From the IMG/VR virus record IMGVR_UViG_3300044712_000279, positions 1 to 21,029 of that record: DNA of 21,029 nt. One strand, written 5' to 3'. Under the pieces are notes generated by a model. That model was not told the origin of the DNA, searched no databases, and saw only the letters and a list, made by a program, of their open reading frames with translations. The DNA is from a virus. Position 1 is the first letter of the stretch, and every line of letters begins with the position of its first letter. Shown piece after piece: positions 2,956 to 10,439 of the stretch. The position numbers and the translations under genes were made by a program.

Positions 2956-2995
2956 TTATCCACAAGCCACTAAGTTATCCACAGGCTTATCCACA
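2956..2995 (+). promoter_or_regulatory. Three perfect DnaA boxes (TTATCCACA)
   Basis: TTATCCACA occurs at 2956-2964, 2975-2983 and 2987-2995, all in the same orientation. This is the consensus DnaA box TTATNCACA. Three perfect 9-mers within 40 bp are not a chance event. Together with the iterons and A/T-rich tract to the right, this points to host-DnaA-dependent origin opening, or to a site that titrates DnaA. Confidence 0.85.
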
Positions 2996-3005
2996 AGCTT
3001 GCTTA

Positions 3006-3021
3006 TCGAACACTTGTTCGT
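3006..3021. promoter_or_regulatory. LexA (SOS) box 1
   Basis: TCGAAC-ACTT-GTTCGT contains the perfect palindrome core CGAAC-N4-GTTCG of Gram-positive and actinobacterial LexA sites. It lies just outward of a minus-strand TTGACA (3036-3031), so bound LexA would block leftward transcription into the small-gene operon. I cannot see a good -10 at the right distance. Confidence 0.75.
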
Positions 3022-3030
3022 ATAAAAACT

Positions 3031-3049
3031 TGTCAAGGGGGGCTTGACA
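3031..3049. promoter_or_regulatory. Back-to-back TTGACA elements
   Basis: TGTCAAG-GGGGG-CTTGACA is an inverted repeat that places a consensus -35 hexamer TTGACA on each strand (minus 3036-3031, plus 3044-3049), pointing away from each other. Each is followed outward by a LexA box. A divergent, SOS-controlled promoter pair is the natural reading, but clear -10 hexamers at 16-18 bp are missing on both sides, so alternative promoter types or an operator dyad remain open. Confidence 0.5.
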
Positions 3050-3050
3050 T

Positions 3051-3066
3051 TCGAACACCTGTTCGG
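3051..3066. promoter_or_regulatory. LexA (SOS) box 2
   Basis: TCGAAC-ACCT-GTTCGG again has the perfect CGAAC-N4-GTTCG core, 45 bp from box 1 centre to centre. It begins 2 nt after the plus-strand TTGACA (3044-3049). No plus-strand gene follows, so this half may control an untranslated transcript across the iterons or act together with box 1. Confidence 0.75.
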
Positions 3067-3095
3067 GTCATTTTTGCCCGTTTTTTGCGATTTTC

Positions 3096-3153
3096 AACCA
3101 GATTTTAACCAGATTTTTAAACCAGATTTTAACCAGATTTTTAAACCAGATTT
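3096..3153. repeat. Iteron array: 24-bp tandem repeat of AACCAGATTTT units
   Basis: Five AACCAGATTT units begin at 3096, 3107, 3120, 3131 and 3144 with alternating 11- and 13-bp steps. The period is therefore 24 bp, and 3096-3119 and 3120-3143 are identical. The last unit supplies the final codons (N-L-V-stop) of the HNH gene ending at 3141. Arrays of this kind next to DnaA boxes are typical initiator-binding iterons. The tract is also A/T-rich enough to be the melting region. There are no unique spacers, so it is not a CRISPR. Confidence 0.85.
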
Positions 3154-9219: not shown

Positions 9220-9498
9220 CTACTCCCCATCAACGACAAGTTCAATATGATGAGGATTCACACAATCCCGATGCCCACACAACCGAACCCCAGGCAACAA
9301 CAAACCACCCGCAACCATCGGATTATCCTCAAGATCAAAATCACCACGCCAAGGCACACACCTAGACGACCCATACTGAATACTCAACGCAGGACGCATA
9401 CGACACGACACACACAATACCACCTGCTGACGGCGTTTAACCAGAGGCACCTCCCATGAGAGACCACACCTCTTACACAAAACACGATTATCATCCAC
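9220..9498 (-). CDS. Zinc-binding HNH-like protein without a clear active site
   Basis: A 92-residue protein starting with GTG. It has CKRCGLSWEV (residues 8-17) and CVSC (about 29-32), which form one zinc site, then a central aromatic part, and ends PGVRLCGHRDCVNPHHIELV. That last motif is the C-x4-C-x-N-P-x-H-L part of HNH_3 nucleases, but the usual catalytic HR helix is missing, so it may be a degenerate HNH or a DNA-binding relic. No Shine-Dalgarno is seen. Directly upstream is the 310-nt structured region with its own promoter, so its mRNA may carry that RNA as leader. Confidence 0.7.
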   Translation of the reverse strand: MDDNRVLCKRCGLSWEVPLVKRRQQVVLCVSCRMRPALSIQYGSSRCVPWRGDFDLEDNPMVAGGLLLPGVRLCGHRDCVNPHHIELVVDGE

Positions 9499-9529
9499 AA
9501 CCCAAGCGTAGCGTAATCACAGGGAAAGG

Positions 9530-9840
9530 CTCAAGAGGGTAGAAATGGCCTAAACGACCATCTCAAACCACAGGTATAAGGACTGTCAGGTTTTCCAATG
9601 GGTCTATCCTCACGGGTAAGACTATCTACGCCATCTGTTTAGCCAGCTGCAAGGATGCTAGGTAGATACGAAGTAGCACCGCCAACTAAACTCTGTTCTA
9701 CTCTCAAGAACTCTTACCTGATCTAAGGTCACACAATTACAGGTACGCCAAACTGACGGCCTCTAACGCCCAGTATCTCCGCTTGTGAAGCGAGAGCCAG
9801 TTTTATAGCAGTCTGACGGTTTAAAAACCTCTGCTTGAAG
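9530..9840 (-). ncRNA. Candidate structured RNA, about 310 nt
   Basis: This gene-free stretch folds well when read on the minus strand. The ends pair: 9839-9827 with 9540-9530 give 11 base pairs with two single-base bulges. Inside are stems 9803-9798/9755-9750 (AAACTG/CAGTTT) enclosing 9796-9788/9784-9777 (8 bp); 9745-9740/9720-9715 (TACCTG/CAGGTA); 9711-9707/9699-9695 (GTTCT/AGAAC); 9668-9662/9629-9623 (TATCTAC/GTAGATA); and a long arm 9604-9598/9561-9556 with 9593-9589/9569-9565 and 9586-9583/9573-9570. A consensus-like promoter ends about 6 nt before the 5' end. I could not match it to tmRNA, RNase P, 6S, tRNA or a group I intron. It may be a free RNA or a long 5' leader of the gene at 9220-9498. 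Confidence 0.5.
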
Positions 9841-9845
9841 ATTTG

Positions 9846-9875
9846 ATTATAGGTGATAAAAAACTAAAATTGCAA
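9846..9875 (-). promoter_or_regulatory. Strong sigma-70-type promoter before the structured RNA
   Basis: On the minus strand TTGCAA (9875-9870), an 18-bp A/T-rich spacer and a perfect TATAAT (9851-9846) form the best -10 match in the window. RNA would start near 9839, exactly where the paired 5' end of the candidate RNA begins and over 330 nt before the next start codon (GTG 9498). Confidence 0.7.
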
Positions 9876-9876
9876 A

Positions 9877-10215
9877 TTAAAAGTGATAGTCGTAATTTGG
9901 CAACTCAGTTTTACCAAAATCATCATCTAGTAAATACCACTTGCCATTCTGCCAAACAGGGATCGCCGCAGCGTCTTGCCAGTTCTCCAGCTTCCAGCCC
10001 ATACCCTTAGCGAGCCGTGCAGCCTCAGCACTCATCTCAATCTGGCAATTAAACCAAGAGCACAAAACAATAATGTTAGACGGCTTATCCTTCTTGTGAG
10101 AGCCGCCCATGCCCCTATTAGACCGATGCTGCGGTACTAGAGTATTGTCGTTTGTTCCGCAGTGTAAGCACTCCAGATCCCGTTCTAGAAACTTAGCCCA
10201 CTGCTTCTGACTCAT
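9877..10215 (-). CDS. HNH-type endonuclease-like protein
   Basis: A 112-residue protein. CLHCGTNDNTLVPQHRSNRG then MGGS and PSNIIVLCSWFNCQIEMSAE match the phage HNH proteins that have an H-R-x-N-R-G-M-G-G-S core and a zinc CxxC. The second metal-holding pair is less regular here. The C-terminal part (IPVWQNGKWYLLDDDF) is a short beta extension often seen in this family. It probably nicks DNA; a role in recombination or packaging is inferred. I place the start at ATG 10215, overlapping the upstream stop by ATGA; a GTG three codons earlier is possible. Confidence 0.8.
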   Translation of the reverse strand: MSQKQWAKFLERDLECLHCGTNDNTLVPQHRSNRGMGGSHKKDKPSNIIVLCSWFNCQIEMSAEAARLAKGMGWKLENWQDAAAIPVWQNGKWYLLDDDFGKTELPNYDYHF

Positions 10216-10439
10216 TCTTCCCACGGTGGCTCCGGACTCCTCGCAGGATCAACTAAACCAGTAGCCATAAACCCAACTGGGGCGGTCTCCACTCGTGAAC
10301 TATCAATAATGGCAAGATTGCCCTCAGAGCGACACTTGTGATTAGAACGCCACTGATTCAACAACTTAATCTCATCAGACCGTTCAGCCTGGAAACTAGC
10401 ACCACACGAACACGCCTCAGAGATCATCAACTTCACCAA
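10212..10439 (-). CDS. Small zinc-finger-like protein, function unknown
   Basis: A 75-residue protein: ISEACSCGASFQAERSDEIK, then WRSNHKC, gives a C-x-C...H-x-C set that could hold zinc. The C-terminal part is proline-rich and probably disordered (DPARSPEPPWEE). Similar tiny CxCG...HxC proteins are common in actinophage early regions, with unknown function. The frame begins with GTG at 10439, four codons before an ATG (10427); either could be the start. It overlaps the upstream mini membrane gene. Confidence 0.65.
   Translation of the reverse strand: MVKLMISEACSCGASFQAERSDEIKLLNQWRSNHKCRSEGNLAIIDSSRVETAPVGFMATGLVDPARSPEPPWEE

Follow-up and report, generated by a model that had tools for sequence, protein, structure and literature searches.

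A gap at 9499-9876 (minus strand) in a phage contig of 21,029 nt, the whole of which we call the window, is with near certainty the gene of a real structured RNA, about 310-330 nt in length, that constitutes a new family. In related phages, this RNA and an HTH_36/DnaD-type replication gene are mutually exclusive occupants of a single genomic slot. By analogy with RNA-dependent origins in other systems, we regard it as an evenly balanced possibility that the free, pseudoknotted RNA acts as an RNA-based origin, or as the initiator, of replication in place of a protein.

The window encodes a tape measure protein, a RecE-like exonuclease, SSB, RusA, HNH proteins and a WhiB-like protein. The initial annotation described a 378-bp stretch without a gene, and this does separate an HNH endonuclease gene (phrog_740, 9877-10224, minus strand) from a gene for a 92-aa zinc-finger/HNH-like protein (9220-9498, minus strand) that occurs with or without the RNA. 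The common gene order, again both with and without the RNA, is ERF, small genes, HNH, the slot, the 92-aa zinc gene, SSB and RusA. Among named phages, relatives of the 92-aa gene occur in just two, Pontimonas phage phiPsal1 and Microbacterium phage ValentiniPuff, which makes an actinobacterial host likely. The 92-aa protein belongs to a small Cys-rich family (C-x2-C, C-x2-C, C-x-H-x-D-C-x4-H) that corresponds clearly to no Pfam family and is present at 56 of 83 loci (the window and 55 others); it precedes SSB in many related phages and is unannotated in phiPsal1. A blastn search against named phages gave no match, a pattern scan of genome contigs for the RNA found none, and a protein scan of the same kind of contigs gave a single short match, which lies in a beta-proteobacterial MAG.

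Transcription is predicted to start from the promoter already proposed for this stretch, TTGCAA-18-TATAAT, which we recover at 9875-9846 (minus strand) with 10 of 12 matches; the region 9400-9950 has three promoter-like sites, against 0.6 expected. The -35-like hexamer TTGCAA (9870-9875) lies where upstream sequence varies among relatives, while the -10 TATAAT (9846-9851) is near the first base that is conserved despite exchange of the upstream gene. Conservation among the window and loci L002, L003 and L005 sets in at about ACCTATAATC; upstream of this point the window and L003 share sequence, and L002 and L005 are unrelated. In the nine sequences that lack additional hairpins, a -10-like hexamer precedes helix P1 by 16-18 nt, and in L023 and L026 the -10 is about 59 nt before P1, with two extra 5' hairpins inserted between them. 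With the 5' end set about 7 nt past the -10, the structured RNA delimited by covariation and homologues covers 9528-9840 (minus strand, about 310 nt); its 3' end is uncertain, falling at about 9541 to 9511. Covariation, described below, and a -10 at a fixed distance from P1 thus both uphold the proposal that the phage encodes a structured RNA under a promoter of its own.

The absence of known RNA signatures also stands, in that the gap has no match, even at E<=10, to any Rfam 15 model, including GOLLD, ROOL, OLE, HEARO, tmRNA, RNase P, 6S and group I intron. The one Rfam match is a chance snoRNA outside the gap, and searches for tRNA or tmRNA found none in the gap and no tRNA genes nearby.

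Clear homologues number 13, about 61-97% identical to the window RNA, with the lowest identities at about 61-65%. Four close relatives were reached through flanking genes; L013, L022, L023, L024, L026, L027 and L028 came from RNA patterns together with a 92-aa protein alignment, and L032 and L033 were found at >150 bits by a covariance model (R1) run on 83 sources. Two remote R1 matches, L070 (E 4e-4) and L043 (E 2e-3), are in the same genomic place. At L043 (2850-3510) the start of the downstream gene is nearly letter-for-letter that of L027 and the RNA allele is very different, which suggests that recombination near the border between RNA and gene exchanges RNA types.

The structure is carried by covariation. 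Counted on a plain MAFFT alignment, 97.1% of cells in an eight-helix core are paired, compared with 81.4% in shuffled alignments and 31-39% when slid by 1-3 columns. Compensatory changes on both sides are found in 28 of the 46 core pairs, matched in none of 500 shuffles, and the core covariation score is 0.508 versus 0.212. Adding P1-P3, P9 and P10 raises the count to 42 of 76 compensated pairs, with mutual information of 33.1 versus 9.1 +/- 1.4 for permuted columns, though these arms were hand-picked, so this measure leans towards structure. A recount of P3-P4 on an alignment that includes L032, L033 and L070 gives 10 of 13 pairs compensated. Folding energy tells another story: it does not differ from that of shuffled controls for the gap (z -0.19) or the trimmed RNA (z -0.33), and z for the homologues lies between -0.7 and -3.2. 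Energy had been suggested as one means of rejecting the RNA and, taken alone, would do so; covariation decides otherwise.

Because G-U cells outnumber A-C cells by 43 to 8, the minus strand is, on alignment evidence, the functional one, in agreement with the promoter prediction. The same imbalance, which an RNA read from the minus strand explains, makes it scarcely conceivable that the stretch is translated or is a feature of the DNA only. High primary conservation in places would suit such a reading, but the alignment contains indels of 1-3 nt along with the compensatory changes, and a search for a reading frame conserved through the stretch, which would have spoken against an RNA, found no ORF kept across the alignment.

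From its 5' end, the predicted structure (all on the minus strand) begins with P1 (AGCAG/CTGCT) enclosing P2 (GGTT/AACC) at 9807-9835, with both-side changes in 4 of 5 and 3 of 4 pairs respectively. It continues with P3 (9777-9796), 6 bp with a bulge and the 7-nt loop TTCACAA (5 of 6 pairs changed on both sides), and P4 (9752-9774), a covarying helix of 7 bp with the 7-nt T-loop-like loop GTTAGAG, a loop motif that recurs in the origin RNAs of mycobacteriophages. P5 (TACCTG/CAGGTA, 9715-9745) and P6 (GTTCT/AGAAC, with GAGAG in the loop, 9695-9711) show both-side changes in 4 of 6 and 4 of 5 pairs. P7 (10 bp, 9637-9691) contains an inner hairpin, P7a (9680-9654), with both-side changes in 7 of 10 and 3 of 7 pairs. 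A 7-bp TATCTAC/GTAGATA stem had been pointed out from the window alone, and it emerges as a pseudoknot supported by covariation (9623-9668), in which the loop of P7a (9668-9662) pairs with a downstream strand (9629-9623). This pairing is 100% complete with two compensated pairs, and its variants, CATCTGC/GCAGATG in L027 and L028 and AGTCGC/GCGGCT in L070, are still complementary. P8 (9602-9622) has a GNRA-type loop, GTGA in the window and GTAA, GCGA or GCAA in relatives, with both-side changes in 3 of 4 pairs. P9 (AAACC/GGTTT with inner ACAG/CTGT, 9565-9593) is nearly invariant in its outer part and has both-side changes in 3 of 4 inner pairs, and P10 (GAGATGGTC/GGCCATTTC, 9542-9564) is fully paired in 12 sequences with one compensated pair. 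The helix that was thought to close the ends of the transcript (9839-9827 with 9540-9530) must be given up: it is not kept in the alignment of homologues, and it competes with the conserved P1 (9835-9831 with 9811-9807).

What occupies the slot when the RNA is missing? Between the HNH gene and the 92-aa gene, RNA-lacking relatives carry an HTH_36 initiator, with or without DnaB, and at most of the RNA-lacking loci examined the 92-aa gene is close behind another gene, often that for the DnaB helicase. All 12 RNA-lacking records contain HTH_36 (PF13730), 11 of them above the curated cut-off, and the 13 RNA-bearing records and the window all lack it; for DnaB the corresponding figures are 6 of 12 and 0 of 13. 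DNA polymerase A is absent from all 25 records, as is a ParA-type ATPase (PF13614), and no record has a match to a tyrosine integrase, although some contigs may be incomplete and absent genes may lie outside them. The inventories of three relatives of 30-35 kb (G002, G007 and G008) comprise structural and recombination genes, with no recognisable replication protein or initiator. Some of the HTH_36 proteins in the slot give weak matches to DnaT/DnaD-type domains, and several of their genes hold three to four iterons, for example TCAGGGGTGACA, at about 21-nt spacing. Iterons inside the initiator gene are the layout of lambda O-like initiators; at the RNA there are none. These TCAGGGGTGACA iterons, spaced 21-23 nt apart within HTH_36 replication genes, are conserved across diverse phages of that kind (L044 1530-1604, L052 2465-2531, L075 2040-2115 and L058 2825-2899).

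The state of the slot, RNA or initiator, changes three times in the RusA tree and three times in that of the 92-aa protein, and at least two changes in the RusA tree are forced by well-supported branches. Since the records are related to one another, we attach no p-value to the exclusion, which could reflect few lineages and about three swaps, a point against an RNA origin. The position just upstream of the RNA is itself variable: some relatives have nothing there and others have modification or homing genes, among them C5-methyltransferase-like genes at L005, L013 and L070, an HNH gene at L004 and a GIY-YIG-like gene at L043 (those without a Pfam call are named from their sequence). Directly upstream of the RNA are also a Mom-family (PF25680) gene at L002 (3368-4024) and a DruA-domain (PF14236) gene at L023 (3089-3682).

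The initial annotation allowed for either a free RNA or a leader controlling the gene at 9220-9498. The former is favoured, as the gene has a -10 of its own: TACGCT (9505-9510, minus strand), of leaderless type, 6 nt before the GTG. A TANNNT motif shortly before the start codon is the pattern of actinobacterial leaderless genes, and it is found 6-8 nt (mostly 6-7 nt) before the ATG or GTG start of the 92-aa gene at all 11 RNA-bearing loci and at 21 of 29 RNA-lacking loci, against a background of 4%. With its own leaderless -10 in both settings, the gene probably forms a unit separate from the RNA. That the RNA should be a cis-acting leader, riboswitch-like or exerting translational control, is thus very improbable, even though the start codon lies no more than about 30-40 nt beyond the conserved block, which in every case precedes the 92-aa gene. 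There is no sign of a Shine-Dalgarno sequence, of a terminator or of a conserved alternative helix that would cover the start codon, and many relatives have the gene, with start signals of its own, and no RNA. Slightly less improbable is a partnership in which the RNA and the zinc/HNH-like protein form a ribonucleoprotein such as an RNA-guided nuclease. The 92-aa gene directly follows the RNA in all RNA loci found, but it occurs without the RNA at about 40 of 56 loci, phiPsal1 and ValentiniPuff included, which weakens this candidate, and L043 and L027 combine a near-identical start of the protein gene with very different RNAs.

A more serious contender is a free trans-acting RNA with a regulatory, anti-defence or host-takeover role, the loss of the initiator being a separate matter and replication proceeding from DnaA boxes or by recombination. 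An RNA with its own promoter, next to a hot spot for modification and homing genes, would fit such a role, and the window has three perfect DnaA boxes (TTATCCACA) at 2956, 2975 and 2987, with two more in G002. These boxes, followed in the same intergenic stretch by AT-rich 24-nt tandem repeats (3089-3153), could be a protein-type origin, either a rival to the RNA or a second origin, for the clade of the window, and to that extent they count against an RNA origin. The cluster is, however, absent from G007 and G008, and under a trans-acting role the perfect exclusion of RNA and initiator from the same slot would be a coincidence; we therefore consider this explanation unlikely, if far from negligible. 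It also counts against an RNA origin that cumulative GC skew does not consistently mark the RNA. As a region, 2956-3153 of the window is an oriC-like candidate whose boxes are partly common to G002, and it contains, just downstream of the boxes (about 3007-3065), two CGAAC-N4-GTTCG palindromes that resemble actinobacterial LexA boxes.

A replication function ranks above each of these alternatives, though we give it only about an even chance. Under the proposed RNA origin, transcription from the TATAAT promoter would make the folded RNA, which would stay on, or find, the phage DNA at its own locus and there prime leading-strand synthesis or load the host replisome. ERF, the RecE-like exonuclease, SSB and RusA, all of the same module, would then amplify the DNA by recombination. 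Searches turned up no DnaB, Pol I or initiator of the phage's own, so host enzymes would have to supply the remaining replication functions. Few systems are known in which an RNA initiates DNA replication; for phage genomes they are mainly the R-loops of T4 and mycobacterial prophages that lack RepA. An RNA that is compact, covaries strongly and trades places with an iteron-type initiator in a single slot offers a handle on RNA-started replication that is based on structure (covariance model, pseudoknot and helices), and the same handle allows a search in other phages with no identifiable replication gene.

The closest parallel is in cluster A mycobacteriophages, where phages without RepA (for example RedRock, Alma, LadyBird, Gladiator and Et2Brutus) replicate as prophages from a region that expresses a noncoding RNA; the region is necessary and sufficient, and RepA is the alternative (PMC7157519). 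Both systems involve an actinobacterial phage and a noncoding RNA in a gap that replaces a replication protein gene, but the protein swapped differs in kind, being RepA in cluster A and an HTH_36 initiator here. Moreover, the cluster A origins lie with parABS genes and function in the prophage state, whereas no ParA-type or tyrosine-integrase match was found here. The RNAs begin alike, with a hairpin of 7-nt loop closely followed by a hairpin with the loop [GT]T[TC]AGA[GTA], and differ in the helices after P5.

Our proposal is that the window RNA may work like the mycobacteriophage origins; membership of their family is not claimed, and the case for homology is suggestive only. The mycobacteriophage RNAs have a covarying structure of their own (18 of 40 pairs compensated), on which a second model (R2) was built; among 19 sources, its best match outside its own family is the L070 RNA, in register at a weak E of 0.19. 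With a third model (R3) and 18 loci, the P4 hairpin of the mycobacteriophage RNAs was matched in most, at best with E 0.065, the loci not being independent. R1 found nothing in Alma and RedRock at E<=10, and a sequence profile of the mycobacteriophage origin RNAs gave no significant match to the present loci. A broader reading is correspondingly tentative, and we think it rather doubtful as a whole: that the new family is the replication initiator of phages without ParA or tyrosine-integrase genes, perhaps lytic, that it has been swapped more than once with an iteron-binding initiator, and that it is a distant homologue of the mycobacteriophage origin RNAs. If true, there would be a widespread class of RNA origins in actinobacterial phages.

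Should the RNA prime replication at its own locus, the mode would be that of ColE1 RNAII and the R-loop origins of phage T4 (PMC3016281), with no sequence relation claimed. ColE1 RNAII has an antisense RNAI, whereas no RNAI-type promoter was found opposite the window RNA: the only promoter-like site on the plus strand there is weak (9843-9870) and points away from the RNA. ARRPOF, GOLLD, ROOL and OLE (PMC12641628, PMC12286853) are likewise large structured RNAs of bacteria or phages with unknown or replication-linked functions; the window RNA is much smaller than GOLLD. Finally, an unannotated origin RNA of the mycobacteriophage type, itself in the training set of R2 and scoring 168.8 bits with that model, lies downstream of an HNH gene in the 90-kb Gordonia phage Daredevil (L135, 2807-4319).
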